DNA of 64,000 nt from Ferrovibrio terrae (GTDB taxonomy: Bacteria; Pseudomonadota; Alphaproteobacteria; Ferrovibrionales; Ferrovibrionaceae), in the NCBI RefSeq assembly GCF_007197755.1, contig NZ_CP041636.1:4128001-4192000 (forward strand), given 5' to 3'. Under the pieces are notes generated by a model, which had not been told where the DNA came from, did not search any database, and was given only the letters and a program-made list of their open reading frames with translations. This document shows, in pieces, positions 8,080 through 24,593 of this stretch. Position 1 is the first letter of the stretch. Every line of letters starts with the position of its first letter. The position numbers and the translations under genes were made by a program.

Positions 8080-8568
8080 TCAAGCCTTCAGGTAGATAAA
8101 ATAGCGCTCCGGGGGTATCGGCACGGGCACCGGCTGCAACATCAGGTCGGGATGGGTCAGCTTCTGGTCGCTGAGCAGTAGCGCGCCTGTCGCCATCAGC
8201 GGCGGTAACCAGCCGCTCATCTGCACGACCTGGCGCGCATTGGCCTCCGGATCTCCCAGCCCCACATCGCTATGCACCATGGCGGCGCCGCCCGGATGAC
8301 GCGCGGCGAATCCCGGCAGGCTGTCGCCGAATTCGCCAAGCATCAGGCGGTCGGCGGGCGGGATCGAAAGCGGATTGGCATTGACCGCGCGATCGAAGGC
8401 ATAGATGCGCTCCGCGCCCAGCCCGGCACGCAGGTGGTCATAGGTACGGCCATTGCCGAGACCGATCTCCAGCACCGGGCCCTCACGATACTTCACCCAG
8501 TCGATGGCCCAGTTCAGCAGTTCGCGCTGCGCGGACAGGCGCGCAATAAAGCTGTCCAGCCGACTCAT
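8080..8568 (-). CDS. Class I SAM-dependent methyltransferase (small)
   Basis: 162 residues, with motif I of Rossmann methyltransferases at about residues 32-41 (VLEIGLGNGRTYDHLR), an acidic post-I region (RIYAFDRAVNANP) and a strand GALLLSDQKL near the end. It is short and seems to be only the core fold without a separate substrate lid. Its ATG shares one base with the stop of the cyclic-nucleotide-binding gene (TGATG at 8566-8570), indicating translational coupling. Substrate unknown; the neighbours (exporter-like protein, flavoprotein, glycosyltransferases across the divergent promoter) suggest a lipid or glycan, but that is inference. Confidence 0.75.
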   Translation of the reverse strand: MSRLDSFIARLSAQRELLNWAIDWVKYREGPVLEIGLGNGRTYDHLRAGLGAERIYAFDRAVNANPLSIPPADRLMLGEFGDSLPGFAARHPGGAAMVHSDVGLGDPEANARQVVQMSGWLPPLMATGALLLSDQKLTHPDLMLQPVPVPIPPERYFIYLKA

Positions 8569-9023
8569 CAGTTCTTCAGCTTGGCGGAAAGTTCGCGCAG
8601 GTCGGCCGTGGTGCGGTCGAGGCGCTGGGCCAGCACGCGCATGATCTCAATGGCGATCTGCGGGAAGTCGGCGATCAGGCGGAAAAACAGATCTTTCTCG
8701 ATCCGCAGCACCGTGGTTTCCTGCGTCGCCGTCACCGTCGCGGTCCGCGGCACGTCGCAGAGGATGGCGATTTCACCGACGAAATCGTTTTGTCGCAGAT
8801 GCGCAACTTTCAGCGGCCCTGACGGCGTGTTGACCACCACATCGGCTTCGCCGCCGATGATGACGAAGGCTGCATCGCCCGGATCACCCTGATGAAACAG
8901 CACATCGCCCGGCTTGTAGGTGAGCCGCTGGCTGGTGAAGGCCAGCAGCTTCAATTTCGACGGCTCGATCTTGGCGAATAGGGGAATTCGCCGCAGCAAC
9001 TCGACTTCTTCGATCAGGCTCAT
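8568..9023 (-). CDS. Cyclic nucleotide-binding domain protein without an output domain
   Basis: 151 residues from the ATG at 9023, which has a GGAGAG site; the frame is open to 9104 but that would overlap the ABC gene. Almost the whole protein is one CAP-type cNMP-binding fold: LRRIPLFAKIEPSKLKLLA, YKPGDVLFHQGDPGDAAFVI, and the phosphate-binding cassette FVGEIAILCDVPRTATVTA with its conserved Gly-Glu and Arg. It ends in a helix and has no HTH, so it should act as a regulatory subunit of another protein, not as a transcription factor. Its place 25 nt after the exporter-like ABC gene, and coupled to the methyltransferase, suggests it senses a nucleotide and controls that complex. Confidence 0.85.
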   Translation of the reverse strand: MSLIEEVELLRRIPLFAKIEPSKLKLLAFTSQRLTYKPGDVLFHQGDPGDAAFVIIGGEADVVVNTPSGPLKVAHLRQNDFVGEIAILCDVPRTATVTATQETTVLRIEKDLFFRLIADFPQIAIEIMRVLAQRLDRTTADLRELSAKLKN

Positions 9024-9048: not shown

Positions 9049-11703
9049 TCAGGATGGGGCCAGCATTTTCTTGAAACGATCGCTCCGTTCACATAACTCC
9101 GCATAGGGGCCGGTATGAGTCACTCGTCCGTTCTCAACTACCACCACGATATCGAAGCTCTCGCAATCCGAGGCACGCTGTAGTGACCAGATCAGGCCAG
9201 CGCCCTTGCGCAATTCGGCAATCGACTTGACCACGGCGGCATGGCTGCGCGGGTCGAGCGCTGCCGTTGCCTCCGACAGCATGATCCAGTCGGGCCGCTT
9301 CACCAGCGCGCGTGCAATGGCGAGCTTCTGGCGCTGCGCTGCATTCAGCCGCGCGCCGGCGATGCCGACTTCGAACAGCAGGCCTACCGCGATGATCGGT
9401 TCGCGCAGCTTGAGTTGCTCGACCACATCGGCCATGACGCGGCCGATCTTTTCCTGCGCCTGCGCCTGACCATAGGCGACGCGGCCAAACAGGATATTGT
9501 CGACGACGCTGGAGGAAATGGTGAACTGCTCCGGATCGAAGAAGGCAATCGCGCCCTTGCGATCTTCAGGCAGGGTATCGGCAAAAATCTTGCGGGCCTT
9601 CAGCACGGCATCGCGTTCGGCATCAGTGAAATGCCCCAGGCGATGCCGCGCCAGCACCAGCTTGAAGGGCAGCGACATCAGGCGGACCCGATCCTCCTCG
9701 GGCAATTGCTCCAGCGTTTCCGGCTTGGTCCGCGTCAGCAGGTCTTTGTAATCCGGCAGGTCTTCCGAGGAGATGAAGCTGAACTGCTGGAAGAATTCAT
9801 GCTCGGGCGGCAGGTCCGCGAACAGTTCGACCATCGTGCCGGCGACTTCGTAACCGATCTCCAGGAAGCGGCGGCGCAGGCCAACTTCATCCAGCACGCG
9901 CAGCACATGCGGGTCGCGCGCCAGATTGTCTTCCTGATATACGCCATTGCGCGCCGTACCGAACATCAGGTTCTCGGCAACCGTCGCGTTGTTGTTGTAG
10001 CGGACCGGATCCCAGCCCTCGACCAGATCGGCCAGGGAGCCGTTGGTCAGCTTCTCGCGGAAAGCCCGACGTGCCGCCAGTACGCGCTCCGCCACATCGG
10101 GCTTCAGCTTCGGGTCGACCGTGCCTCGCATGCCGAGCTGATAGACATCCTCGTCGAAACTGGCCGCCTTCAGCGCCGGAATGGTAACCATGATGAGCTC
10201 GTCCGGCCCGCTGGCGCCAGCTGCTTCATAGTCAGTCCAGTCGGCATCGGCATCGTAGGGCGAGTTACCCGAGGCATGCGCCTCGAGGATTTCTTTTTCA
10301 AACCGCGCCTGCAGCTCATCCTGCCGTTCGCGCGCGATCAGCGGACGATGCCGCAATCCCATGAACAGATTGTCGCCCAGCGAAGTGTTGAAGATGTAGC
10401 TGGAGGCGCTGACATAGGCCAGCCGGCGACCGGTGACGGCTTCAGGCAGCTCCATCAGGTTCTTTTCATTGATCGCGATGCGACCGCGCGTGGGGTCTTG
10501 CAACCGCGCCAGCAACTGCAGCAGTTCGTCGCGGCCGTTGTCGCCGACGATGGCAACGCGGGCCGGCCACGGCAACGAAAGGTTGAGATTGTCCAGGATC
10601 GGCTGCCCCTGGTCGTCATTCATCACCAGGCTGGAAACCGAAATCGGCCCGGCCAGTGAAACGGGCTGCTCCGGCTCAGCCCACTGATCCGCCGGGTCGC
10701 GCATCCCCTCCTGTACGAACTGGGTCACCACCTGCTCGTATTTCTGTTTCACGTCCTCGCGCTGCTGGTAATGGTTCAGCAGCTCCTTCCACGGCGACGC
10801 CATCTCTTTATGCGCATTCACCGCGGCCACCACGGTACCTACGTCCATCTGGCCGCGGATCGTCAGATAGCCACCGATGGCGTAGAAGAAGAACGGACCA
10901 AGCTGCTGAATGAAGTTGTTCAGGAACTTGATCATGAACTTGCGCTGATAGATTTCGACGCGAATCCAGTAGCTGATGCTCAGACGGCCGGTGAATTCGG
11001 CCAGCATGCGGTTCGACACGTCATGCGTATGCAGTTCGGTCACACCGCTGATGCTCTCGCCGATGCGATCCGACAGCCGACGCTGGTTCTTGATGCGCTC
11101 GCGGCCCAGCGCCCGCACTTTGGCCTGCATTTTCGGCACGAAATAGAACTGGATCGGGTAGAGCGCCACGGCCGCAAAAGCCATCAGCGGATTCTGGAGC
11201 AGCAGGAAGCCGAAGATCACCAGCAACATGCCGCCCTGGAAGATCGGCAAGGCAAAGCTTTCACCGATGAAGCCGCCAACCGGCTCGACCTCGGCGATCA
11301 CCATCGGGATGATTTCGCCCTGGCTGGTCCGTCGGAAGGTGGGCAATGGGAAGCGCAGGATATGCGCATAAAGCTCATAGCGCATTCGGCGCAGCATCCG
11401 CTCGCCGGCGACGCCCTGGAAATAGTTGATTGCGTATTTGAAGCCCTGCTGCACCAGCACGAGGAACAGGAACACGCCGCAGAGCCAGAACAGATAGGTG
11501 GTTTGGTCCATCGGCCACAAGCCGAGGCCGTAAAGATCGACAGGGAAGGAAACATCCTTGCCCTGGATACCCTCGTTCACGATCGATTTTGGAATGCTGA
11601 GGTAGTAATAATACGGCACGAAAGACGCGACCGAGAGCAGGGTGATGATAACCTGCTGCCTCAGGCTGTATTTTATAATGAAGCCGTAGAGAGTCTTTTC
11701 CAC
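9049..11703 (-). CDS. ABC exporter-like membrane protein with degenerate nucleotide-binding domain
   Basis: 884 residues. The first 330 are an exporter-type transmembrane domain (hydrophobic segments near 18-36, 70-90, 150-170, 172-190 and 263-283; RRMRYELYAHILRFPLP as in ABC exporters). The nucleotide-binding part begins near 350 but lacks its catalytic residues. The Walker A site reads GDNGRDEL (387-394) with no Lys-Ser/Thr. The Q-loop position reads YVSASSYIF. The signature is LNAAQRQ (786-792) in place of LSGGQ. Walker B is WIMLSE (806-811), keeping Glu but losing Asp. The switch His is Gln (SLQRAS, 840-845). The D-loop TAALDP is kept. About 300 residues are inserted between Q-loop and signature. 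A pattern like FNTSLGDNLFMG recurs at 438-449, 569-582 and 728-740. Total length is about 300 above usual half-exporters. It is unlikely to hydrolyse ATP in the standard way. First gene of the CNB-methyltransferase-oxidoreductase run. Confidence 0.8.
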   Translation of the reverse strand: MEKTLYGFIIKYSLRQQVIITLLSVASFVPYYYYLSIPKSIVNEGIQGKDVSFPVDLYGLGLWPMDQTTYLFWLCGVFLFLVLVQQGFKYAINYFQGVAGERMLRRMRYELYAHILRFPLPTFRRTSQGEIIPMVIAEVEPVGGFIGESFALPIFQGGMLLVIFGFLLLQNPLMAFAAVALYPIQFYFVPKMQAKVRALGRERIKNQRRLSDRIGESISGVTELHTHDVSNRMLAEFTGRLSISYWIRVEIYQRKFMIKFLNNFIQQLGPFFFYAIGGYLTIRGQMDVGTVVAAVNAHKEMASPWKELLNHYQQREDVKQKYEQVVTQFVQEGMRDPADQWAEPEQPVSLAGPISVSSLVMNDDQGQPILDNLNLSLPWPARVAIVGDNGRDELLQLLARLQDPTRGRIAINEKNLMELPEAVTGRRLAYVSASSYIFNTSLGDNLFMGLRHRPLIARERQDELQARFEKEILEAHASGNSPYDADADWTDYEAAGASGPDELIMVTIPALKAASFDEDVYQLGMRGTVDPKLKPDVAERVLAARRAFREKLTNGSLADLVEGWDPVRYNNNATVAENLMFGTARNGVYQEDNLARDPHVLRVLDEVGLRRRFLEIGYEVAGTMVELFADLPPEHEFFQQFSFISSEDLPDYKDLLTRTKPETLEQLPEEDRVRLMSLPFKLVLARHRLGHFTDAERDAVLKARKIFADTLPEDRKGAIAFFDPEQFTISSSVVDNILFGRVAYGQAQAQEKIGRVMADVVEQLKLREPIIAVGLLFEVGIAGARLNAAQRQKLAIARALVKRPDWIMLSEATAALDPRSHAAVVKSIAELRKGAGLIWSLQRASDCESFDIVVVVENGRVTHTGPYAELCERSDRFKKMLAPS

Positions 11704-11909: not shown

Positions 11910-13133
11910 ATGGTACCGCGTAGCGACGGCACTCGTGTGCTGATCTACAGCCACGACACATTCGGACTCGGCCATCTGCGCCGGTGCCGCACCATCGCGC
12001 ATGCCCTGGTCGAACGCCATCCCGATATGTCCGTGCTGATCATGTCGGGCTCGCCGATCATCGGCAGCTTTGATTTCCGCAGCCGCGTCGACTTCGTGCG
12101 CGTGCCGGGCGTGATCAAACTGCGCGACGGCCAGTACACCTCGCTGAACCTGCCGATGGACATCGAGGAAACCCTGAAGATCAGGGCTGAGATCATCCAG
12201 CATACCGCCCGCGTCTTCGACCCCGATATCTTCATCGTGGACAAGGAGCCGCTGGGGCTGCGCGGCGAAGTGCTCCCGACCATGAAGATGCTGAAGGAAC
12301 GCGGCACCCGTATTGTGCTCGGCCTGCGCGATGTGATGGACGAACCCAGCGCGCTGAAGCCGGAATGGGAACGCAAGAACGTCATGCCGGCGCTGAAGCA
12401 CCTGTACGACCAGATCTGGGTCTACGGCCTGCCGCAATTCTGTGACCCTCTGGCCGGCATTACCCTGCCCGAGAAAGTCCGCCGCAAGGTGGTCTATACC
12501 GGTTATCTGCCGCGCACCTCGGGCGAGGCCCAGCCGGAGCATCAGCTGCCGGAAATCACCCAGCGGCCCTTCTTGCTGGTCACGCCGGGCGGTGGTGGCG
12601 ATGGCGAAGGTCTGATCGACTGGGTGCTGCGCGCCTACGAGAGCAACGAAATCCTGCCCTATCCGGCGCTGATCGTGCTGGGCCCCTTCATGCAGAAGGA
12701 GCGGCGCGGCGAGTTCTTGGCCCGCGTCTCACGCCTGCCGCGCGTGGAAGCCATCACCTTCGATGCGCATATGGAGCATCTGGTGCAGAATGCGGTCGGC
12801 GTGCTCGCCATGGGCGGCTACAACACCTTCTGCGAAATCCTGTCGCTCGACAAACGCGCCATCATCGTGCCACGCAAGCGTCCGCGCATGGAGCAATTCA
12901 TCCGTGCCAGCCGCGCGCAGGAACTCGGCCTGATCCGCATGCTGGAAGATGACGGCCAGTATGATCCCACCGTGATGGCGAATGCCCTGCGCAATCTGCC
13001 ACGCCAGTCGCTGCCGTCGCAGATCGTCATTCCCGGCCTGCTTGAAGGCCTCGATAACGTCGATCGCCTGGTCCAGCCCTGGCTCCGCCCGCGCGCTGAA
13101 CGGCCGGGCAATGTGGTGGAATTGCGGGGCTGA
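11910..13133 (+). CDS. MurG-like glycosyltransferase family protein (paralogue 1)
   Basis: 407 residues. The N-terminal half opens VLIYSHDTFGLGHLRRCRTI, a strand and glycine-rich loop followed by a His, as in GT-B enzymes such as MurG and UGT-like proteins. The C-terminal half has LLVTPGGGGDGEGLIDWVL and VLAMGGYNTFCEILSLDKRA, where GT-B enzymes bind a nucleotide sugar. No signal peptide or membrane span; cytoplasmic, perhaps at the membrane face. It shares layout and the GYNT motif with the gene at 16131, so the two are probably related. First gene of the plus-strand glycan cluster, divergent from the degenerate ABC gene. Donor and acceptor unknown. Confidence 0.8.
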   Translation: MVPRSDGTRVLIYSHDTFGLGHLRRCRTIAHALVERHPDMSVLIMSGSPIIGSFDFRSRVDFVRVPGVIKLRDGQYTSLNLPMDIEETLKIRAEIIQHTARVFDPDIFIVDKEPLGLRGEVLPTMKMLKERGTRIVLGLRDVMDEPSALKPEWERKNVMPALKHLYDQIWVYGLPQFCDPLAGITLPEKVRRKVVYTGYLPRTSGEAQPEHQLPEITQRPFLLVTPGGGGDGEGLIDWVLRAYESNEILPYPALIVLGPFMQKERRGEFLARVSRLPRVEAITFDAHMEHLVQNAVGVLAMGGYNTFCEILSLDKRAIIVPRKRPRMEQFIRASRAQELGLIRMLEDDGQYDPTVMANALRNLPRQSLPSQIVIPGLLEGLDNVDRLVQPWLRPRAERPGNVVELRG

Positions 13134-13152
13134 CCCGCCGCCCCTTCCGCGT

Positions 13153-14403
13153 ATGTCAGAGTCAGCCCAGTCACCCACTCCGTCACCTGTCGCTTTTGTC
13201 CTGAAGGGGTATCCGCGGCTGTCGGAAACCTTCATCGCGCAGGAAATCGCCGCACTGGAGGCGCGCGGGCTGGACATCCTGATCGTCTCGCTGCGCCATC
13301 CGACCGACCGCAAGCGTCACGCCCTGCACGACCAGATCCGCGCGCGGATTCTGTATCTGCCGGAATACCTGTATCAGGAGCCGCTGCGCGTGCTGCGCGG
13401 CTGGTGGTTCGCCCGCCACCTGCCCGGCTATCGCCGCGCACTGCAGGTCTGGTGGCAGGATTTCAAACGCGACCGCAGCAGTAACCGTATCCGCCGCTTC
13501 GGCCAGGCCATGGTGCTGGCGGCAGAGTTGCCCGCAGGCTATCGCCACCTGCACGCCCATTTTATTCATACGCCCGGTTCGGTGGCGCGCTATGCCGCAC
13601 AGATCCTGCAATGCCCGTGGACGGCATCGGCGCATGCACGCGACATCTGGATCACGCCGGACTGGGAAAAGCGCGAGAAACTCGCCGACTGCCAGTGGGT
13701 CGTGACCTGCACCGCGCATAACCGCACGCATCTTGCCGCCCTGAGTGATTCCGAGCGGGTATCGCTGGTTTATCACGGCATCGATTTCTCGCGCTTCCCC
13801 GAGCCGCCGGTCTGGCGCGCCCGTCGCGATGGCCGCGACGCGCAGGACCCGGTGCGGCTGCTGTCTGTCGGCCGCGCCGTCGACAAGAAGGGCTACGACA
13901 TCCTGCTGCGGGCGCTGGCGCGTCTGCCGGTCGACCTGCACTGGCATTTCACGCATATCGGCGGCGGGCCACTGCTCGCCAAGCTGAAGGCCCAGGCCGT
14001 CAGCCTCGGCATCGCGGATCGCATCTCCTGGCAGGGCTCGGCCACGCAGGAGGCCGTGATCGAGGCTTACCGCACGGCCGATGTGTTTGCTTTGGCCAGC
14101 CGCCGCGACCAGGATGGCGACATGGACGGCCTGCCGAATGTACTCATGGAGGCGCAAAGCCAGGCCCTGCCCTGCGTCGCCACCACGATCTCCGCCATTC
14201 CCGAACTGATCGTCGATGGCGAAACCGGCCTGCTGGTGCCGAGCGAGGATGTGGGCGAACTGGTCGTGGCGCTCAACCACGTGATCGTCGATCCGGCGCT
14301 GCGCGAGCGATTGGGCAAGGCTGCGTCGGCAAGAGTGCGGCAGGCATTCGAAATGACGAGCGGCATCGCGGAACTGGCGCGGCGCTTCGGCCTGGCGGCC
14401 TGA
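13153..14403 (+). CDS. Glycosyltransferase family 4
   Basis: 416 residues from the ATG at 13153, 19 nt after the previous stop; the frame is open to 12982 but that part only shadows the upstream gene. The N-terminal lobe has FVLKGYPRLSETFIAQEIAAL, typical of exopolysaccharide GT4 enzymes. The C-terminal lobe has LLSVGRAVDKKGYDILLRAL, HIGGGPLL and MDGLPNVLMEAQSQALPCVA, the nucleotide-sugar site with its acidic residue, then ELIVDGETGLLVPSED. It should transfer a sugar from a nucleotide donor with retention of configuration to a glycan under construction. Specificity cannot be told. Confidence 0.9.
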   Translation: MSESAQSPTPSPVAFVLKGYPRLSETFIAQEIAALEARGLDILIVSLRHPTDRKRHALHDQIRARILYLPEYLYQEPLRVLRGWWFARHLPGYRRALQVWWQDFKRDRSSNRIRRFGQAMVLAAELPAGYRHLHAHFIHTPGSVARYAAQILQCPWTASAHARDIWITPDWEKREKLADCQWVVTCTAHNRTHLAALSDSERVSLVYHGIDFSRFPEPPVWRARRDGRDAQDPVRLLSVGRAVDKKGYDILLRALARLPVDLHWHFTHIGGGPLLAKLKAQAVSLGIADRISWQGSATQEAVIEAYRTADVFALASRRDQDGDMDGLPNVLMEAQSQALPCVATTISAIPELIVDGETGLLVPSEDVGELVVALNHVIVDPALRERLGKAASARVRQAFEMTSGIAELARRFGLAA

Positions 14404-14413
14404 ACGGAGCGCG

Positions 14414-15556
14414 GTGATGCGGATTGGCTTCTATGCACCGCTCAAGCCGCCCGATCATCCGGCCCCGTCCGGCGACCGCCGTGTCGCCCGCCTGTTCATG
14501 GCCGCCCTGCGCGGCCTCGGCCATGACGTGACGCTGCTGTCCGACCTGCGCAGCTACAACCGCGACGGCGATCCGGCACGCGAGGCTGCCACGGCAGATG
14601 CGGCTGCCGCCGAAGTCGAAATGCTGGCCGCCGCGTGGAAAAATGACCCGGTAGAAAAACCCGATCTTCTGTTCACCTATCACGTCTATCACAAGGCCGC
14701 TGACTATCTCGGTCCGGCGCTGAAGCAGCGTTTCGCCCTGCCCTACGTGATTGCCGAAGCCTCGGACTCACCACGCCGGTGCGATGGTACATGGGCGACT
14801 GGATATGCACAGGCCAAACGCGCGCTGATCGCCGCCGACCGGTTGCTGGCCATCACGCGGCACGACGTTCCGGGATTGGTTGGCTGCGTCGGCGCGGCGC
14901 GCGTGCAGTATTTTGCGCCCTTCATCGATCCCGTACCCTTCGCGTCGGCTGCGGCACAGCGAACACAGCACCGCGTCGATCTGGCCGCACGTTTCAGGCT
15001 GCCGATGGATCGCCCCTGGCTGCTCGCAGTGGGCATGATGCGCGACGGCGACAAGCTGGCCTCCTTCCGCCGACTGGCCGAAACCCTGCCGCTGCTGCGC
15101 GACAACAACTGGCATTGCAGTCTGGTTGGCGACGGCCCGGCGCGCGAAGCAGTGGCAAATGCTTTTGCCGCGTTGGGAGATTGCGTGACGTTGACCGGAC
15201 AGATGGAGCCGGATCAGCTCGCCGCGCTGTATGCCGCGAGCGACCTCTATGTCTGGCCCGCCGTCAATGAGGCCTATGGCATGGCGTTGCTGGAGGCACA
15301 GGCCGCCGGATTGCCGGTGCTGTCGGTTCGCACACGCGGCGTTCCAGATATCGTCGAGCATGGTGTCACCGGCTGGCTGACACCGGATGACACACCCGCT
15401 GCCATGGCGAATGCCATCGGGCATTTGCTTGCTGATCAGGATCAAAGACTGCGCATGGCTACCGCAGCGCCATTGCGGGTGCAGAGAGAGCTTTCGATGG
15501 ATGCCGCGCAAGCGAGGCTGACGACGCTGTTCGCCGAACTGGGGCTGCCGGCATGA
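14414..15556 (+). CDS. Glycosyltransferase family 4
   Basis: 380 residues. The frame starts with GTG at 14414 immediately followed by ATG at 14417; the ATG is the likelier start with GGAG upstream. GT-B fold: IGFYAPLKPPDHPAPSGDRR with the glycine/serine loop near the N terminus, then LLAVGMMRDGDKLASFRRLA, LVGDGPAREAV, and the EX7E donor motif NEAYGMALLEAQAAGLPV, then DIVEHGVTGWLTPDDTPAAM. It lies 10 nt after the previous GT4 gene and overlaps the phosphatase gene by ATGA. The two GT4s resemble each other only in the general fold, so they probably add different sugars. Confidence 0.9.
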   Translation: MMRIGFYAPLKPPDHPAPSGDRRVARLFMAALRGLGHDVTLLSDLRSYNRDGDPAREAATADAAAAEVEMLAAAWKNDPVEKPDLLFTYHVYHKAADYLGPALKQRFALPYVIAEASDSPRRCDGTWATGYAQAKRALIAADRLLAITRHDVPGLVGCVGAARVQYFAPFIDPVPFASAAAQRTQHRVDLAARFRLPMDRPWLLAVGMMRDGDKLASFRRLAETLPLLRDNNWHCSLVGDGPAREAVANAFAALGDCVTLTGQMEPDQLAALYAASDLYVWPAVNEAYGMALLEAQAAGLPVLSVRTRGVPDIVEHGVTGWLTPDDTPAAMANAIGHLLADQDQRLRMATAAPLRVQRELSMDAAQARLTTLFAELGLPA

Positions 15557-16131
15557 CCCGCAATCTGGTTCTGCTGCGCCATGGCGCCACCGACTGGAAT
15601 GCCGCCGGGCGGCTGCAGGGCCGCGCCGACATCACGCTGTCCGACGCCGGCCGTGCCGCATTTGCAGGCTATTCTGTGCCATCCACCTATCTTGCCAGAC
15701 AGTGGTATGTCAGCCCGCTGCGCCGGGCACAGGAGACCGCCGCGCTGCTGGGCCTGAAGCCCCGGATCGAACCGGCATTGATCGAAATGGATTGGGGGCA
15801 ATACGAAGGCCGCACATTGCCAGAGCTACGCGACGCCTACGGCAATGCCTTCACGGCCAATGAAGACCGCGGCCTCGACCTGCAGCCGCCCGGTGGTGAA
15901 AGCCCGCGTCAGGTGCAGCAGCGGCTGCTGCCCTGGCTGCGCAGCCTGCCGGCGGATGCCGGCGCCGTTGCCCATAAAGGCGTCATTCGCGCCATCCTGG
16001 CCCTGGCTTTCGATTGGCCGATGCTGGGCCGTGCGCCGGTCAAGCTCGACTGGCATTGCCTGCAGGAATTTAGCATAACGGAAGACGGTCGCCCCACCCT
16101 GGTGGCGGCAAATATTCCGCTGGAGCGATAA
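15553..16131 (+). CDS. Histidine phosphatase family protein (phosphoglycerate-mutase-like)
   Basis: 192 residues. The catalytic motif LVLLRHGATDWN at the N terminus carries the phospho-accepting His; the downstream arginine (SPLRRAQETAALL), the acid (MDWGQYEGRTLPEL) and the second His (VAHKGVIRAIL) are all present, so it should be active. Relatives remove phosphate from sugar phosphates, nucleotides or cobalamin precursors. Here it lies inside a glycosyltransferase operon, overlapping the upstream gene by ATGA and the downstream gene by TAATG, so a sugar-phosphate or lipid-phosphate intermediate is a reasonable substrate (inference). Confidence 0.88.
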   Translation: MTRNLVLLRHGATDWNAAGRLQGRADITLSDAGRAAFAGYSVPSTYLARQWYVSPLRRAQETAALLGLKPRIEPALIEMDWGQYEGRTLPELRDAYGNAFTANEDRGLDLQPPGGESPRQVQQRLLPWLRSLPADAGAVAHKGVIRAILALAFDWPMLGRAPVKLDWHCLQEFSITEDGRPTLVAANIPLER

Positions 16132-17288
16132 TGGGCGGCCCGCGCGTCCTGATCTGGGTACAGCATCTGCTTGGCGTCGGCCATCTGCATCGTGCCGCGT
16201 CGATCTGCCGTGCGCTGCTGCGCCAGGGCGCCACGCCACTGCTGGTCTCCGGCGGCCTGCCTGACCCGACCCTGCATGGCATCGACGGCATCGGCTTCGT
16301 CCAGCTGGCACCTGCGCGTGCGCGCGACGCCACCTTCAAGATCCTGCTCGATATCAATGGCGAGGTAGTGACCGAAGAGTGGAAATCGACCCGCAGCGCC
16401 ATGCTGCGGGATGTGGTGCGCAACTTCGCCCCCGACATGGTGATCACCGAACTGTTTCCGTTCGGCCGCCGGCAGATGCGGTTCGAGATGATGCCGCTGC
16501 TGCAGATGCTGCGCGGCATGCCGAACCGTCCGCTGATCTTCTGCTCGGTGCGCGACATTCTGGTCGATCGCGGCAAGCCGCAGCACGATATCGACTCCAT
16601 CACCTGGCTGCAGGAATATTTCGATGCGGCGCTGGTACATGGCGACCCCTCGGTAATCGCTTTCGAAAACACCTTCCCGATGGCGGAGAAAATCCGCCAT
16701 ATGCTGATTTATACCGGCTATATCGCCGAGCAACATGTCATCCCCTATACCGAAGCCGGCGTCGACGAAGTGTTGGTCTCTGCCGGCGGTGGCGCCGTAG
16801 GCATGAAGCTGTTCCAGGCCGCCATCGACGCCCGACCTATGACGGTGGCGCGCGACGCGACATGGCGCATCCTGGTGAGTCCGCTGGAAAATCCTCACAA
16901 CATCACCACACTGCGCGAGATGGCGCCGCCGGGTGTGATCATCGAGCCGGTTCGTCCCGATTTTCCCGGTATGCTGCATCATTGCCTGCTGTCGATCAGC
17001 AAGGCTGGCTACAACACCATGATGGAGACACTAGGCGGCGGTTCACGCGCGGTCGTGGTACCGTTCGTCGGCGGCAATGAAACCGAACAGGCCTTGCGTG
17101 CTGCCCTGCTGTCCAGGCGGGGGCTGATGCACATGCTGCCAGAACCGGACATGACACCGCAGACGCTGGCCGCTGTCGTCGATCACGCACTGGCTTCGCC
17201 GAAGCCGGATCCCACTGCCATCCGCCTCGATGGCGCCGAGGAAACCGCGCGCCGCATTAGGGCCGAAATCGAAAAGCACCGCAGATGA
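16131..17288 (+). CDS. MurG-like glycosyltransferase family protein (paralogue 2)
   Basis: 385 residues with the same plan as the 11910 gene: VLIWVQHLLGVGHLHRAASI at the N terminus (compare YSHDTFGLGHLRRCRTI), VLVSAGGGAVGMKLFQAA in mid-protein, and SKAGYNTMMETLGGGSRAVV plus VGGNETEQALRAALL at the nucleotide-sugar end. The EQ...RA segment resembles the MurG UDP-sugar contact. No signal or membrane span. Its start overlaps the phosphatase stop by one base and its stop overlaps the deacetylase start by ATGA, so the whole set is translated together. Confidence 0.8.
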   Translation: MGGPRVLIWVQHLLGVGHLHRAASICRALLRQGATPLLVSGGLPDPTLHGIDGIGFVQLAPARARDATFKILLDINGEVVTEEWKSTRSAMLRDVVRNFAPDMVITELFPFGRRQMRFEMMPLLQMLRGMPNRPLIFCSVRDILVDRGKPQHDIDSITWLQEYFDAALVHGDPSVIAFENTFPMAEKIRHMLIYTGYIAEQHVIPYTEAGVDEVLVSAGGGAVGMKLFQAAIDARPMTVARDATWRILVSPLENPHNITTLREMAPPGVIIEPVRPDFPGMLHHCLLSISKAGYNTMMETLGGGSRAVVVPFVGGNETEQALRAALLSRRGLMHMLPEPDMTPQTLAAVVDHALASPKPDPTAIRLDGAEETARRIRAEIEKHRR

Positions 17289-18094
17289 CGGTGGGTTGGC
17301 AGGCGCTGGAGGACGAACTCGACCGCTGGGCGTCCGAAGGACGCACCGCCTGCTTCTGGTGGCGCGATGACGATGCTGTCGCGGCGACACCGGCTCTGGA
17401 TCGGCTGCTTGGTCTGCACCGATCGAGCGGCGCGCCCTTGGCGCTGGCCATCATCCCGGCGCAGGCCGAGTCCAGCCTGGCCGGGCGGCTCAAATCCGAG
17501 CCCGGAATTGCTGCGCTGCAGCATGGATATGCGCACCACAATCATGCCGGCCCACCGGAGAAAAAATCCGAGTTCCCGCACAAACGTTCGCTAAGCGAAC
17601 GGCTGGCTGACCTGCGCACCGGCCATGATCGCCTTCGCAGCCTGTTTGCCCCGGGGCAGCTGCTGCCGGTCTTCGTCCCGCCCTGGAACCGCATGGCGCC
17701 GGATTGCCTGCCGGTCATGCCGGGCCTGGGCTATGCCGCGGTCTCGGCCTTCCAGCCCCGCGTCAGTTACTGGGCAGCCCCGGGCCTTGTGGCACTGAAC
17801 ACCCATATCGACCCGATCGACTGGCACGGCCACGACAATGCGGCAGCCGCCGAACGCAGTCTGGCCGTCAGCTGCGCGCATTTGCGCGCCATGCGCGCAG
17901 GCGAACAGCATCTGCAGCCGCTTGGATTGCTGACCCATCATCTTCGGCATGACGAGACGGTCTGGGCCTTTGCCGCCGCGTTTTTATCCCGCACCGCCGC
18001 GCATGCCGCAGTGCACTGGCTCGATGTGGGCGCGGCGCTGAAAATCGGTGCGCCCGGCGGTTCTGTGGCCCCCTCTGTCACGCCCGCGTCATGA
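17285..18094 (+). CDS. Polysaccharide deacetylase family protein
   Basis: 269 residues. The NodB-homology marks are visible: the metal and catalytic acids in CFWWRDDDAVAATPALDRLL, the metal histidines in LQHGYAHHNHAGPPEK, then PVFVPPWNRMAPD where these enzymes have the conserved Arg/Pro segment, and LGLLTHHLRHDE near the end. It should remove N- or O-acetyl groups from a saccharide, using a divalent metal. No signal peptide is apparent, so it may act on a cytoplasmic glycolipid intermediate, as expected for an enzyme embedded in a glycosyltransferase operon. Acceptor unknown. Confidence 0.85.
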   Translation: MTVGWQALEDELDRWASEGRTACFWWRDDDAVAATPALDRLLGLHRSSGAPLALAIIPAQAESSLAGRLKSEPGIAALQHGYAHHNHAGPPEKKSEFPHKRSLSERLADLRTGHDRLRSLFAPGQLLPVFVPPWNRMAPDCLPVMPGLGYAAVSAFQPRVSYWAAPGLVALNTHIDPIDWHGHDNAAAAERSLAVSCAHLRAMRAGEQHLQPLGLLTHHLRHDETVWAFAAAFLSRTAAHAAVHWLDVGAALKIGAPGGSVAPSVTPAS

Positions 18095-18582
18095 CCCGCC
18101 TGTATTACCCCCTCTCCCGGCTGTGGCCGGACTATCTGCGTGCCGGGATCGGGCTCGCCATCTGTCTGGGACTGGTGTTGTTCGTAGCCCCTCAATCTGT
18201 CATTTTTGCCCTGCTGGTCGGACTGAGCCTGCTCTTTGCTTGGCTTGGTGCGGTCACGATCTGGCGACAGCAGATCGAGATTGAACTCGACGCGTCCGGC
18301 GTCGTCCGGCGGGGATGGGGAAGAATGGTGGCGTTGTCATGGCCGACAGTTAAGGCCGTGACCCTGCGCTACTATTCGACACGTCGCGATCGCAGCGAAG
18401 GTTGGCTTCAGCTGGTGATCGAGGCGGAAGGGGGAACTTTGCGGGTCGACAGTAATTTGATTGGTTTTCCGTCCATCGTCGAACGGGCGTTTGCCGCGGC
18501 CGAGCAGAACGGCGTCGCCATCAGTGAAGTCTCTCGCCTGAACGCCAGCCGCATACACAGCGTTGAAGGAAACCAGCCGTGA
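18091..18582 (+). CDS. Small membrane protein with two N-terminal spans and a PH-like C-terminal domain
   Basis: 163 residues. Two adjacent hydrophobic segments (about 18-34 and 36-56, AGIGLAICLGLVLFV and ALLVGLSLLFAWLGAV) are followed by IELDASGVVRRGWGRMVALSW and a beta-rich tail (VKAVTLRYYS, GWLQLVIEAEGGTLRVDS). This pattern is like bacterial PH-domain membrane proteins, but the match is by eye only. It overlaps the deacetylase by ATGA and the ABC ATPase by GTGA. It may anchor or sense something at the inner membrane; no function is assigned. Confidence 0.6.
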   Translation: MTRLYYPLSRLWPDYLRAGIGLAICLGLVLFVAPQSVIFALLVGLSLLFAWLGAVTIWRQQIEIELDASGVVRRGWGRMVALSWPTVKAVTLRYYSTRRDRSEGWLQLVIEAEGGTLRVDSNLIGFPSIVERAFAAAEQNGVAISEVSRLNASRIHSVEGNQP

Positions 18583-20471
18583 GCGTTTCGGAGCTGAATC
18601 GCAACGTGCTCGAGGTCAGGGACCTGCAGGTGCATTTCGACCTGCCGGAGGGCCTGATCCGTGCCGTGAACGGCATCAGCTTCAGCATCCCGCAAGGCGG
18701 CACAGTCGCGCTGGTAGGTGAATCCGGCTCGGGCAAGTCGGTGGTCAGTCAGGCGATCATGGGCATACTGCCGCGTCCGGCGCGTATCGCCAGCGGCCAG
18801 ATACTGTTCCATGATCCGCTGAAGCCCGGCGATGCGATCGATATCGCGACGCTCCCTCGAGGCGGCAGCGCCATGCGACAGCTTCAGGGCGGCCGCATCT
18901 CGATCATCTTCCAGGAGCCGATGACGTCGCTTAGCCCGCTGCACACTATCGGCGACCAGATTTCCGAGGCGCTGAAGCTGCATCGCAAGGCCGACGACAA
19001 CCAGGCCCGCGAACTGACAGCCGAAATGCTGCGACTGGTCGGCTTCCCCGATCCGAAGCGCGCGTTGCGCACCTATGCTTTTGAGCTGTCCGGCGGCCTG
19101 CGCCAGCGCGCCATGATCGCCATGGCGCTGGTCTGCCGCCCTGCCCTGCTGATCGCCGACGAGCCGACTACCGCGCTCGATGTCACCATCCAGGCGCAGA
19201 TCCTGAAGCTGCTGAAAGACCTGCAGTCCGAACTCGGCATGGCGATCCTGATGATCACGCATGATCTGGGCGTCGTGGCCAACATGGCCGACGAGATCGT
19301 GGTGATGTATCACGGCCAAGCCATGGAGCGTGGCGGCCTGCACGACATCTTCGGTAACCCGCAGCATCCTTATCTGAAAGCGCTGCTGCATGCCGTGCCG
19401 CGCTTCAATATGAAGCCGGGTGAAAGACTGGTGCCGCTGCGCGAGATCAAGGGTGAAGTGGGCAAGCTGCTGCGCAGCAACGCGCCCACTAAAGATCGAT
19501 CTGGCGAAACACTGCTTGAAGTCGAGCATGTCAGCAAGAGCTTCTCCCTGCGCAAAGGCGGCATGTTCAGCCCGGCCAAAGGGCCCTCATCGGTGATTGC
19601 CGTCGACGATGTCAGCTTCACCGTGAAGCGTGGCGAATGCCTGGGGCTGGTCGGCGAGTCCGGCTGCGGCAAGACGACGGCCAGCAAGCTGATCCTGCGC
19701 GCCATCACGCCCGATAGCGGCAACATCCGCTTCAAGGGTGCCGACGTTCTGAAGCTGGAAGGTGACGACCTGTTCCGCTATCGCCGGCAGGTGCAGTTCA
19801 TCTTCCAGGACCCGTTCTCGTCGCTCAATCCGCGCATGACGGTCTTTGATATCCTGTCCGAGCCGCTGGTGATCCATAAGATCGGCGACGCAGACGAACG
19901 TTTCGAGCGGGTCAAGGAGTTGATGACGCTGGTCGGACTTGATCCGCGCTTCCTGCGCCGCTACCCGCACTCTTTCTCGGGCGGGCAGCGTCAGCGCATC
20001 GGCATCGCCCGCGCACTTGCCCTGCAACCCGAACTGCTGATCTGCGATGAGCCGGTCTCCGCGCTGGATGTCTCGATCCAGGCGCAGATCCTCAATCTGC
20101 TGAAGGATCTGAAAGCCGAACTGGGCCTGACTTACATTTTCGTCTCGCACAACCTGGCCGTTGTGGATTATGTGGCCGACCGCATCGCGGTCATGTGCGC
20201 CGGCCGCCTGGTCGAACTGGCGCCGCGTGAGCAGCTGTTCAACAACCCGATCCACCCCTACACCAAGGCGCTGCTGTCCGCGGTCCCCAAGCCCGATCCG
20301 GACAGTCGCCTCGACCTGCGCCTGCTGATGGAGGACAAGGCCTCCAAACCGGCAGCCTGGCCGCGCCCCTTCACCATTGACGGCACCGCACGACCGCGCA
20401 TGATCGACCTTGGCCAAGGCCATCTCGTGCGTGCCGATGCCAATGCCGATTTCCGGGACCTCGTCGCATGA
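18579..20471 (+). CDS. ABC transporter ATP-binding protein, fused double ATPase (Opp/Dpp/Yej type)
   Basis: 630 residues holding two complete ATPase domains. Domain 1 has Walker A GESGSGKS near residue 47, signature LSGGLRQR and Walker [13 protein letters not shown]. Domain 2 has Walker A GESGCGKT near 360, signature FSGGQRQR and Walker [13 protein letters not shown]. Each ends in the oligopeptide-transporter C-terminal element ([16 protein letters not shown] and [16 protein letters not shown]). This is the YejF-like form in which OppD and OppF are fused. It powers the adjacent permeases. It starts with GTG at 18579 (GAAGGA upstream), overlapping the preceding stop, and its end overlaps the binding-protein start by ATGA. 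Confidence 0.95.
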
Positions 20472-22375
20472 TGCCCTCGCTTCGCCCTGCCCTCGCGCTT
20501 CTTGCCGCGCTCGCCGCCTTCACCGCCATGGATGTGGCGGCGCAGACGCAATTGCCCGACCTGCAGGAAACACCGATGCTGTCGGCCGAAGTGAATGCGG
20601 GCAAGCTGCCGCCGGTGGCACAGCGTCTGCCGCAGCCGCCGCTGATCGTCACGCCACGCGAACCGGGCCGACATGGCGGCGATCTGCGCAGCCTGATCAG
20701 CCGGGCGCGCGAGACCCGCCTGCTCAACGTGATCGCCTATGCGCGCCTGATCATCTACGACGAGAAATACGAGTTCGTGCCCGACATCCTGGAGAAGTTC
20801 GAGGTCGAGGACGACCGGGTCTTCACCTTCCATCTCCGCAAGGGTCATCGCTGGTCCGACGGCGCGCCCTTCACGACTGAAGATTTCCGTTATTACTGGG
20901 AAGACGTCGCCAACAATAAAGACCTCAGCCCTGCCGGCCCGACGCAGGACCTTCTGGTCGATGGCGAGAAGCCGAAGGTGGAGATCATCAACGAAACCAC
21001 CGTCCGCTACAGCTGGTCGAAGCGCAACCCATCCTTCCTGCCGCGCATCGCCGGCACGTCGGCCTTCAATCTCTATCGCCCCGCGCATTACCTGAAGCAG
21101 TTCCACGCGCGCTATGCCGACCCGCAGAAGCTGGCCGCTATGGTGACGGCCGAGAAGCGTGCCAACTGGGCCGCGCTGCACGGCCGCGTCGACAACATGG
21201 TCGAAGGTGACAATCCTGACTTGCCGCTGCTGGATGCCTGGACGATCACGACCAAGCCGCCAGCCGTGCGTTTCGTCGCCGTACGCAATCCCTACTATCA
21301 CCGGATCGACAACAACGGCCGCCAGCTGCCGTATCTCGACCGCATCATCTTTACCCAGGCCGATGGCAAGCTGATCCCGGCCAAGGCGGGCGCCGGCGAG
21401 GCCGACCTGCAATTCCGCAGCGTGAATTTCAGCAACTTCACCTTCCTGAAGGAAAACGAGAAGCGCGCCGGCTACAAAACGCTGCTGTGGCGCACCGCCA
21501 AGGGCTCGCATATCGCGCTCTTCCCCAACCTGAACGCCAATGACCAGGTCTGGCGCAAGCTGATGCGTGATGCGCGCTTCCGGCATGCCCTGTCGCTGGG
21601 CATCGACCGCCAGGCGATCAATGAGTCGCTGTTCTTCGGTCTGGCAATTGAATCGAACAACACGGTGATGCCGGACAGCCCGCTGTTCAAACCGGAATAC
21701 CAGACGACCAATGCGACATTCGATGCCGCCACCGCAAACAGGCTGCTTGACCAGATCGGCCTGACCAAGCGCGATGGCAACGGCGTTCGCCTGCTGCCGG
21801 ATGGCCGGCCGGCCGAAATCATCGTCGAAACCGCCGGCGAAGACACCGAGCAGACCGACGTGCTGGAACTGATCGGCGAGAACTGGGCCAAGATCGGCAT
21901 CAAGCTGTTCTCCAAGCCGAGCCAGCGCGACGTGGTGCGCAACCGCATTTTCTCCGGCGAAGCAGTCATGTCGGTGTGGTCCGGACTGGAAAACGGCCTG
22001 GTCACCGCCGACATGAAGCCGAACGAACTGGCGCCCACCTCGCAATTCGGCCTGCAATGGCCGAAATGGGGCCAGTGGCACGAGACCGGCCACCAGTCCG
22101 GCGAGCCGATCGACATGCCGGTGGTGCAGGAGCTGTTCGACCTCTATCACACCTGGCTCGAAACCGGCGACAAGGCGGAGCGCGCCCGCATCTGGCACCG
22201 CATGCTCGGCATCCACGCCGAGCAGACGCTGACCATCGGCATCGTGACCGGCGTGTTCCAGCCGATCGTGGCCAGCAAGAAACTCAACAACATTCCGAAG
22301 GAAGGCGTATTCAACTGGGATCCCGGCGCCTTCGTCGGGCTGTATCGCCCGGAAACCTTCTGGTTTGGCCAATAG
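20468..22375 (+). CDS. ABC transporter substrate-binding protein, large SBP_bac_5 family
   Basis: 635 residues, longer than the usual 500-540 of family 5 and closer to YejA or the alpha-galactoside protein AgpA. The signal peptide ([25 protein letters not shown]) is followed by a proline-rich lead (VAQRLPQPPLIVTPREPG), then the binding-protein core: FTFHLRKGHRWSDGAPFTTE, RDARFRHALSLGIDRQAINE and a C-terminal AFVGLYRPETFWFG. It should deliver a solute to the two permeases that follow. Substrate could be a peptide, a sugar or an oligosaccharide; the upstream glycan operon makes a saccharide possible, but nothing in the sequence decides it. Confidence 0.9.
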   Translation: MMPSLRPALALLAALAAFTAMDVAAQTQLPDLQETPMLSAEVNAGKLPPVAQRLPQPPLIVTPREPGRHGGDLRSLISRARETRLLNVIAYARLIIYDEKYEFVPDILEKFEVEDDRVFTFHLRKGHRWSDGAPFTTEDFRYYWEDVANNKDLSPAGPTQDLLVDGEKPKVEIINETTVRYSWSKRNPSFLPRIAGTSAFNLYRPAHYLKQFHARYADPQKLAAMVTAEKRANWAALHGRVDNMVEGDNPDLPLLDAWTITTKPPAVRFVAVRNPYYHRIDNNGRQLPYLDRIIFTQADGKLIPAKAGAGEADLQFRSVNFSNFTFLKENEKRAGYKTLLWRTAKGSHIALFPNLNANDQVWRKLMRDARFRHALSLGIDRQAINESLFFGLAIESNNTVMPDSPLFKPEYQTTNATFDAATANRLLDQIGLTKRDGNGVRLLPDGRPAEIIVETAGEDTEQTDVLELIGENWAKIGIKLFSKPSQRDVVRNRIFSGEAVMSVWSGLENGLVTADMKPNELAPTSQFGLQWPKWGQWHETGHQSGEPIDMPVVQELFDLYHTWLETGDKAERARIWHRMLGIHAEQTLTIGIVTGVFQPIVASKKLNNIPKEGVFNWDPGAFVGLYRPETFWFGQ

Positions 22376-22390
22376 GCAGAAGCATCTGAC

Positions 22391-23416
22391 ATGCTGACGT
22401 ATCTTGCGCGCCGAACGCTGCTGATGATCCCGACATTGCTGATCATCAGCGTGTTGATCTTCCTGATCATCAAGCTGCCACCTGGCGATTACCTGTCGAA
22501 CCAGATCGCCGAACTGCGCTCCCAGGGGGAAACCAGCGCCATGGAGCGCGCCGAATTCCTGCGCTCGCAATATGCGCTGGATCGCTCGATCATGGAACAG
22601 TACGGCATCTGGATGGGCTTCATTCCCGGCCCGAACGGCTTCTCAGGTATCCTGCAGGGCGACTGGGGCTGGTCGTTCGAATATAACCGCCCGGTCGGCG
22701 AACTGATCGGCGACCGCCTGCTGATGACGGCGTTCATCAACTTCTTCACCATCCTGTTCATCTATGCCGTGGCCTTCCCGATCGGCGTCTACTCTGCCAC
22801 GCGGCAGTATTCCTGGGGTGACTACGGCTTCACGCTGTTTGGCTATATCGGCCTGGCAACGCCGAATTTCCTGCTCGCCCTGGTGATGCTCTACTACGCC
22901 AATATCTGGTTCGGCATCAGCATCGGCGGCCTGGTTGATCCCGAACTGATCGACGCGCCCTGGAACTGGGAAAAGATCAAGTCGATGATGGTGCATATGA
23001 TCGTGCCGGTGGTCGTGATCGGCACCTCGGGCACGGCGGCGATGATCCGCCGGCTGCGCGCCAATCTGCTGGACGAATTGCAGAAGCAGTATGTCACCAC
23101 GGCGCGCGCCAAGGGCCTGCCGCCGCTGCGCCTGCTGGTGAAATACCCGATCCGCATGGCGCTCAACCCCTTCATCTCGGATCTCGGCAACCTGCTGCCC
23201 TCCGTGGTCTCCGGTTCGGTGATCGTGTCGGTGGTGATGAGCCTGCCGACCGCCGGCCCGATGCTGCTGGGCGCGTTGCAATCGCTCGACCAGTATCTTG
23301 CCGGCTCGTTCCTGATGTTCCTGGCGCTGCTGACCGTGGTCGGCATGCTGGTCTCCGACATCCTGCTGGCGCTGCTCGATCCGCGCATCCGGCTCACCGG
23401 CGGACAGGCCAAGTAG
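22391..23416 (+). CDS. ABC transporter permease, Opp/Yej B type
   Basis: 341 residues. The N terminus YLARRTLLMIPTLLIISVLI is the standard first span of OppB/DppB/YejB-type permeases. Further spans lie near 115-135, 150-170, 205-225, 265-290 and 305-325. The coupling loop that contacts the ATPase reads RRLRANLLDELQKQYVTTARAKGLP, with the EAA-like ARAKGL core. It ends DILLALLDPRIRL. It lies 15 nt after the binding-protein gene and 1 nt before the second permease, forming the membrane channel with it. Confidence 0.95.
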   Translation: MLTYLARRTLLMIPTLLIISVLIFLIIKLPPGDYLSNQIAELRSQGETSAMERAEFLRSQYALDRSIMEQYGIWMGFIPGPNGFSGILQGDWGWSFEYNRPVGELIGDRLLMTAFINFFTILFIYAVAFPIGVYSATRQYSWGDYGFTLFGYIGLATPNFLLALVMLYYANIWFGISIGGLVDPELIDAPWNWEKIKSMMVHMIVPVVVIGTSGTAAMIRRLRANLLDELQKQYVTTARAKGLPPLRLLVKYPIRMALNPFISDLGNLLPSVVSGSVIVSVVMSLPTAGPMLLGALQSLDQYLAGSFLMFLALLTVVGMLVSDILLALLDPRIRLTGGQAK

Positions 23417-23417
23417 C

Positions 23418-24593
23418 ATGAGTGATACTCCCGTCCCCAAGCCGACCCGCCCGGAACACTGGGTCAATCCCACGCCGTTCGATCCCTATTCGATCGAAAA
23501 GATGACCGCCGGCCAGGAGAAGTATTACCGCGCCTCGCAGTGGCAGATGATGTGGTGGAAGTTCAAGCGCCACCGGCTCGGCCTGTGGAGCGGCATCATC
23601 CTGCTGCTGATCTATGCCTCCACGCTGTTTTCGGAATTCATCGCGCCCTACAACCTGCAGACCCGTAATCCGCGCGGCATCTATGCGCCGCCGCATGCGA
23701 TTCACCTGTTCCACGAAGGTGAATTCGTCGGGCCATTCGTCTACGGCATGCGTTTCCGCATGAATACCGAAACGCTGAAGCGTGAATATGCCCCGGACCT
23801 GAGCAAGGTGCACAAGCTGCGCTACTTCTGCCAGGGCGACCAGTACGACTATATGGGCCTGGTGACGATGCGCTTTCACCTGGTCTGTCCGGCCGAAGGC
23901 GGCGATTTCTATCTGCTCGGCACCGACCGGCTGGGACGCGATATCTTTTCCCGTGTCGTCTACGGTACACGCATCTCGCTGACCGTCGGCCTGTTCGGCA
24001 TCGCCATCAGCTTCATCATTGGCATCGTGCTGGGCGGCATCTCCGGATACTACGGCGGCTGGATCGACAATGTGATCCAGCGCCTGATCGAACTGATCCG
24101 AAGTCTGCCCGAACTGCCGCTCTGGATGGCGCTGTCAGCCGCACTGCCGGTCACCTGGTCGCCGATCCTGGTCTATTTCGGCATCACGATCATTCTCGGC
24201 CTGCTCGACTGGCCGGGCCTTGCCCGCGCGGTGCGATCAAAGCTGCTGGCATTGCGCGAAGAGGATTTCGCCACCGCCGCGCAGCTGATGGGCGCTTCGC
24301 CCAGCCGCATTATCGGCCGTCACCTGCTGCCAAGCTTCATGAGCCACCTGATCGCCTCGGCCACGCTGTCAATCCCGTCGATGATCCTGGGTGAAACTGC
24401 GCTGTCGTTCCTGGGCCTGGGCCTGCGGCCGCCGATCACCTCCTGGGGCGTGCTGCTCAACGAAGCGCAGAACATCAACGTGGTCGCGCTGTATCCCTGG
24501 CTGATGGCGCCGGCCATCCCGGTGATCGTGGTGGTGCTGGCCTTCAACTTCTTCGGCGACGGCCTGCGCGACGCGGCCGATCCCTATCGCTGA
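23418..24593 (+). CDS. ABC transporter permease, Opp/Yej C type with long periplasmic loop
   Basis: 391 residues. The cytoplasmic tail (QWQMMWWKFKRHRLGLWSG) leads into span 1 (about 55-72), then an unusually long stretch of about 100 residues with no span (APPHAIHLFHEGEFVG to VCPAEGGDFYLLG) before the conserved GTDRLGRDIFSRVVYGTRIS and the remaining spans. The coupling loop reads REEDFATAAQLMGASPSRII. The end FNFFGDGLRDAADP is standard. Most OppC/DppC proteins have a loop about half this length; the extra piece probably docks the large binding protein. Last gene of the transporter operon. Confidence 0.93.
   Translation: MSDTPVPKPTRPEHWVNPTPFDPYSIEKMTAGQEKYYRASQWQMMWWKFKRHRLGLWSGIILLLIYASTLFSEFIAPYNLQTRNPRGIYAPPHAIHLFHEGEFVGPFVYGMRFRMNTETLKREYAPDLSKVHKLRYFCQGDQYDYMGLVTMRFHLVCPAEGGDFYLLGTDRLGRDIFSRVVYGTRISLTVGLFGIAISFIIGIVLGGISGYYGGWIDNVIQRLIELIRSLPELPLWMALSAALPVTWSPILVYFGITIILGLLDWPGLARAVRSKLLALREEDFATAAQLMGASPSRIIGRHLLPSFMSHLIASATLSIPSMILGETALSFLGLGLRPPITSWGVLLNEAQNINVVALYPWLMAPAIPVIVVVLAFNFFGDGLRDAADPYR

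Follow-up and report, generated by a model that had tools for sequence, protein, structure and literature searches.

ABC exporters are defined by their coupling to ATP, and in canonical exporters coupling between the NBD and the transmembrane domain (TMD) runs through the Q-loop/helical subdomain. From this architecture CFTR became a channel and SUR a regulator. The known heterodimeric exporter pairs are usually encoded by adjacent genes. Both CFTR (ABCC7) and SUR1/SUR2 (ABCC8/9) have degenerate site(s) (PMC7756269). Catalytic residues have also been lost from an exporter NBD in TM287/288, TmrAB, BmrCD and Pdr5, the last of which lost several motifs of one site, and the known degenerate exporters retain one working site (PMC7756269). 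A cyclic-nucleotide-binding (CNB)-type domain belongs to the ABC exporter in the HetC-type CNB-containing peptidase ABC exporters, and the TIGR03896 'bacteriocin-type transport-associated' CNB proteins likewise pair such a domain with an ABC exporter. The CNB-type domain of HetC binds ppGpp in vitro and is required for function, and HetC also requires a canonical NBD catalytic residue (PMC10986499).

Here we describe a protein family, represented in the window (the whole stretch of 64,000 nucleotides of Ferrovibrio terrae DNA that was analysed), that shares the TMD family and NBD core fold of the type IV exporters (MsbA/Sav1866/P-glycoprotein-like). It departs from them in its lost ATP-site residues, a duplicated segment of ∼ 270 residues, a CNB partner, and a TMD that is better conserved than the NBD. 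The likeness to CFTR and SUR, in which an exporter architecture with degenerate site(s) has also been repurposed, is one of kind only: unlike the family, those proteins bind ATP, keep at least one near-canonical site, are eukaryotic and lack a CNB domain, and they are regulated by phosphorylation or a channel partner rather than by a CNB switch of the type proposed below. HetC differs from the family in its C39 peptidase domain, its N-terminal CNB domain and its need for an NBD catalytic residue. Moreover, whereas TM287/288, TmrAB, BmrCD and Pdr5 have one canonical composite site, the family has no linked canonical partner gene. A literature search by concept and by guessed Rhizobium and Sinorhizobium locus tags, covering few subscription papers, returned no study of the family and no description of an exporter family with both ATP sites gone. 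This widespread alphaproteobacterial family is apparently previously undescribed.

Results

An exporter-like protein with a degenerate ATP site

The gene occupies positions 9049..11703 of the window on the minus strand, with a GTG start at 11703, and encodes a protein of 884 amino acids. A reading made earlier from the sequence alone had reported a clean frame of 884 codons without giving its strand; the frame is indeed open throughout and free of frameshifts. The best curated sequence match is MsbA. Residues 1–345 (10669..11703, minus strand) form the TMD, as delimited by Pfam ABC_membrane, entropy and pairwise identity; the PF00664 match (83 bits, residues 70–294) identifies it as the ABC_membrane domain of a type IV exporter. 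The NBD is split by a long insert. Its N-terminal half comprises residues 346–454 (10342..10668, minus strand), and Pfam ABC_tran matches this N-terminal part only (42 bits, residues 370–469). The insert itself (residues 455–720; 9544..10341, minus strand) lies between the Q-loop and the signature and is conserved in 53/53 members of the family. The C-terminal half of the NBD follows as residues 721–884 (9052..9543, minus strand). The modelled NBD core, N-terminal half included, superposes on solved canonical exporter NBDs (Z about 26, rmsd 2.0–2.7 Å over ∼ 231 residues) and so has the NBD fold of a type IV exporter, although the structure models are monomers built from a shallow 11-row alignment and the TMD is poorly modelled in the full-length AF2 model. 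A fold search returned ordinary ABC proteins only, as expected, with SUR NBDs and ordinary exporters both among the matches. A phage origin of the gene was rejected, the PHROGs matches being general ABC transporters only.

Each of the degenerate motifs quoted in the sequence-only reading was found at its reported place, and all lie on the minus strand. Walker A reads GDNGRDEL (residues 387–394; 10522..10545). The Q-loop region reads YVSASSYIF (residues 430–438) and falls within a unit (unit 1, residues 425–450; 10354..10431) in which the Gln is lost and Asn445 is invariant. The signature is LNAAQRQ (residues 786–792; 9328–9348), Walker B is WIMLSE (residues 806–811; 9271–9288), and Gln842 (9178–9180) stands in place of the switch His. 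The loss is therefore deep; the phrase 'nearly every catalytic residue', as it had been put, is slightly strong because E811, after Walker B, and Q790 of the signature remain.

The degeneration is a property of the family. Of 389 sampled alphaproteobacterial genomes, 154 gave matches. Among 61 relatives 30 genomes were positive, most of them with full-length homologues, and in all aligned members this long segment separates the Q-loop from the signature. One phylum sample, of undisclosed make-up, gave no match outside the Alphaproteobacteria, and the family may be restricted to the class. Ten canonical ATP-site residues were scored in 53 diverse members, mostly from different families. The best member keeps seven of the ten, four members keep none, and a complete ATP-hydrolysis motif set (Walker A/B, signature, Q and H) occurs in 0/53. 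The Walker-B Asp is kept in four members and the Walker-A Ser/Thr in about three, and most members lack the A-loop aromatic residue and the glycines of the signature. The Walker-A Lys persists in 24/53 and the equivalent of Glu811 in 29/53, while the Walker-A Gly pattern is largely retained. Overall, conservation of the ATP-site columns does not exceed the NBD average, except in part at the Lys/Arg position. The NBD residues that the family does retain, namely the TIxxN Asn, the RQ(K) that follows the signature and the Asp of the D-loop, are structural.

Hidden canonical motifs were also sought across the 53 members: there was no LSGGQ and no canonical Walker B, and the one P-loop pattern, in a single member (L109), sits at the normal Walker-A place. 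The insert, which the sequence-only reading had singled out as the place where canonical motifs would count against it, contained none in any of the 53. Alignment with homologues and with ABC exporters was a check proposed in the same reading. MsbA-like orthologues were aligned from 30 of the same genomes, and none of them deviates at the Walker-A Lys, the Q-loop Gln, either signature Gly, the Walker-B Asp, the catalytic Glu or the switch His; the other exporters of the Ferrovibrio genome have canonical motifs. One element of the earlier account did not survive, namely the joint loss of the motifs. The tree shows stepwise losses: the Walker-B Asp was lost on the family stem (4 changes), and the positions of the Lys, Gln, Glu and His underwent repeated change (11–14 changes vs 4 for the Asp). 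The Walker-A Ser/Thr, judged by its near-absence, was also lost on the stem. Taken as a whole, these comparisons give good support to the view that ATP catalysis has been lost in the family. Weak nucleotide binding may persist, because the Walker-A Lys and the Glu that follows Walker B are each kept in about half of the members.

Selection acts on the protein, and the TMD is its most conserved part

Mean pairwise identity within the family is 0.515 for the TMD, 0.390 for the NBD core and 0.393 for the insert, whereas in the MsbA-like control it is 0.645 for the NBD and 0.405 for the TMD. The constraint on the two domains is thus inverted relative to the control, and the TMD, with many invariant residues, is the most conserved part of the family. 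Within Ferrovibrio dN/dS is 0.06–0.27 over the gene and low in all regions, the insert included. The protein is under selection, though not for ATP hydrolysis. Selection for a non-standard function, as proposed earlier, is borne out by the family-wide degeneration, the low dN/dS and the inverted constraint. A pseudogene or sequencing error is ruled out by open frames in > 150 genomes together with the dN/dS values. In Sinorhizobium meliloti 1021 (L131; pSymB, about 841723–844426) the match spans 2704 bases, compared with 2703 in other S. meliloti strains, and this record may therefore carry a one-base indel in the gene.

The insert is a tandem duplication of the Q-loop/helical segment

The ∼ 270-residue insert is not foreign: it arose when the Q-loop/helical segment of the NBD itself was duplicated in tandem. 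Segment 455–720 and the stretch after it contain two more copies of the post-Q-loop motif, so that the order along the protein is SSYIFNTSLGDNLFMG, DPVRYNNNATVAENLMFG, DPEQFTISSSVVDNILFG. Unit 2 (residues 536–620; 9844..10098, minus strand) carries the second of these, and unit 3 (residues 694–777; 9373..9624, minus strand), which aligns to it with hhalign, carries the third and runs into the signature. Profile–profile comparison of residues 500–689 with 690–800 gave a score of 92 (E 1.8e-15) for units 2 and 3, whereas 60 column shuffles reached no more than 18; the match of unit 1 to unit 2 is weaker (score 40) and still above chance. The profile of the region matches the equivalent stretch of canonical exporters twice, once via unit 1 and once via unit 3, and in the latter case profile positions 296–381 match the canonical segment ahead of the signature. 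The strand-helix-strand order is the same in units 2 and 3 of the NBD model. The NBD thus grew through multiplication of its Q-loop/helical subdomain. No Pfam family matches the insert above its cut-off, and a foreign domain was rejected on that ground and because internal duplication explains the insert.

A CNB protein is the constant partner

Downstream lies a CNB domain protein (8568..9023, minus strand; PF00027, 76 bits), which probably begins 26 bases past the stop of the ABC-like gene, at a likely ATG at 9023 with GGAGAG upstream. Its phosphate-binding cassette GEIAILCDVPRTA (8739..8777, minus strand) has the pattern GE...PR[TS]A. The protein scores 40 bits against TIGR03896, below that model's cut-off. 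Neighbourhoods were counted at 48 loci from > 30 families, mostly with one locus per family, and at 47 of these a CNB domain is encoded directly downstream (in a few cases with one gene between) or is fused at the C-terminus. The cassette is intact: Gly, Glu/Asp and Arg in 47/47 each, and Thr/Ser in 40/47. The exceptional locus (L097) belongs to a 2.0-Mb genome (G110) in which the ABC-like gene has no CNB neighbour and any PF00211 cyclase is also lacking, a single case.

Fused ABC-CNB proteins form a single clade in the tree (SH-aLRT 98), with a less canonical cassette. The fused forms of family group f23, which includes genome G145, and of a Ruegeria plasmid (L104, L105 and L116) lie away from glycan genes and have the cassette GDLAII...PRQL; G145 has several copies.

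Adenylate/guanylate cyclase genes (PF00211) are present in 38 of 39 genomes with the ABC-like gene vs 12 of 20 larger genomes without it (Fisher p 4e-4), an association for which the E-value limits differed and phylogeny and genome content are uncontrolled. The cluster itself includes a cyclase gene in Sinorhizobium and on pRL11 of Rhizobium johnstonii; the ABC-like/CNB pair of R. johnstonii 3841 is RL_RS29995/RL_RS29990. The ligand of a CNB domain can be something other than cAMP or cGMP, as is clear from the binding of ppGpp by that of HetC (PMC10986499).

Glycan genes and other neighbours

A divergent glycan operon (11910..18582, plus strand) was recognized from Pfam matches and conserved linkage. 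It encodes a COG4671-like GT28-type protein, two GT4 proteins, a His phosphatase and a second GT28-type protein (four glycosyltransferases), together with a polysaccharide-deacetylase-like protein and a small membrane protein, the last two of which have no Pfam match and bear provisional names. It is followed by an SBP_bac_5-type ABC importer (18579..24593, plus strand) comprising fused ATPases, a binding protein and two permeases. The same gene set, importer included, is found in Rhizobium, Sinorhizobium and Azospirillum, and the operon and importer (11910–24593) accompany the ABC-like/CNB pair across many alphaproteobacterial families. Linked glycosyltransferases occur at 34 of the 48 loci (about 70%) and a linked importer ATPase at 12. 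The glycan genes are common rather than obligatory, since the fused-CNB clade mostly lacks the cluster.

In Rhizobium leguminosarum 3841, pRL110056 is described as an enzyme of O-antigen biosynthesis that root colonisation requires (PMC11103875). This gene might be located in the glycan/ABC-like cluster. The tags SMb2122x and SMb20813 appear to denote other genes.

On the other side of the CNB gene is a Methyltransf_17 SAM methyltransferase (8080..8568, minus strand; PF12692, 163 bits). Such a gene neighbours the ABC-like gene at 20/48 loci, and this linkage gives the uncharacterised Methyltransf_17 family a context. Downstream of the cluster, 5864–7999 encodes a 711-amino-acid FAD-dependent oxidoreductase, weakly HpnE/phytoene desaturase-like, that among the 48 loci was seen only at the 3 of Ferrovibrio. 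Another exporter gene is nearby at 3 of the 48 loci only. The neighbourhoods thus lend no support to the earlier suggestion that the protein uses another ATPase, and a heterodimer partner next door was rejected. No conserved second membrane protein that the ABC-like protein might regulate was found adjoining the gene.

Discussion

The reading that we prefer, with a probability of roughly 0.45, is that the family comprises ATP-independent proteins built on an ABC-exporter scaffold, with a cyclic-nucleotide (cNMP)-binding partner as the conformational switch and a function tied to glycan or glycolipid production. The protein would no longer be an ATP-driven pump, and its TMD would carry the selected function, most likely passing across the inner membrane a glycan or glycolipid that the linked glycosyltransferases produce, or else organizing its synthesis. 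The substrate, guessed from those linked genes, is put forward as a glycan or glycolipid. The NBDs, their ATP site eroded and their Q-loop/helical coupling subdomain multiplied, may serve as a structural lever, and the adjacent or fused CNB domain as the switch, such that the lever would shift on cNMP binding and the complex would thereby be opened, closed or assembled. In unfused members also the two proteins would be in physical contact, and cNMP would gate the ABC-like protein. A more specific form of the proposal is tentative: that cyclic nucleotide has been swapped for ATP, giving a cNMP-gated, ATP-independent channel, flippase or scramblase that is an exporter homodimer with an NBD grown by multiplication of the coupling subdomain.

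A possible alternative is a membrane scaffold or sensor in the manner of SUR: the protein would bind a glycan, a lipid or the glycosyltransferases, with the CNB domain either passing on its signal or fixing its position. Such a role would fit the lost ATP site, the highly conserved TMD with its many invariant residues, the constant CNB partner and the persistence of the gene in genomes without the glycosyltransferase cluster; however, the exporter-like TMD is complete, which exceeds a scaffold's needs, and a conserved second membrane protein was not found adjoining the gene. Transport may instead persist in slow cycling driven by weak binding of ATP rather than by its hydrolysis. The retained Lys (24/53; Lys or Arg in Walker A), Glu811 (29/53) and much of the Walker-A Gly pattern are in keeping with this, yet it is made unlikely by the scarcity of the Walker-B Asp (4/53) and Walker-A Ser/Thr (about 3/53), by the general loss of the A-loop aromatic residue and signature glycines, and by ATP-site columns that are only as conserved as average NBD columns.

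More improbable still is that the protein is the degenerate half of a heterodimeric exporter whose canonical half is encoded elsewhere in the genome, as might be supposed by comparison with TM287/288, TmrAB and BmrCD. Linked exporter genes are exceptional (3/48 loci), and the decay is deeper than in known degenerate halves: with the Walker and signature sides both lost, neither composite site would be present in a heterodimer. These points stand against the presence of canonical half exporters in the same genome and the fact that degenerate sites are common in heterodimers (PMC7756269).

Overall, the sequence-only interpretation is partly supported. Annotated records name the family's proteins simply 'ABC transporter ATP-binding protein', which is misleading. 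A large, old and selected family that retained the membrane machinery, shed the ATP site and acquired a partner that binds a signal would amount to a natural experiment in the roles of NBDs beyond hydrolysis, and would provide counterparts of CFTR and SUR that are bacterial and easy to express. It would also connect signalling by cyclic nucleotides with the production of surface glycans in rhizobia, Azospirillum and their relatives.
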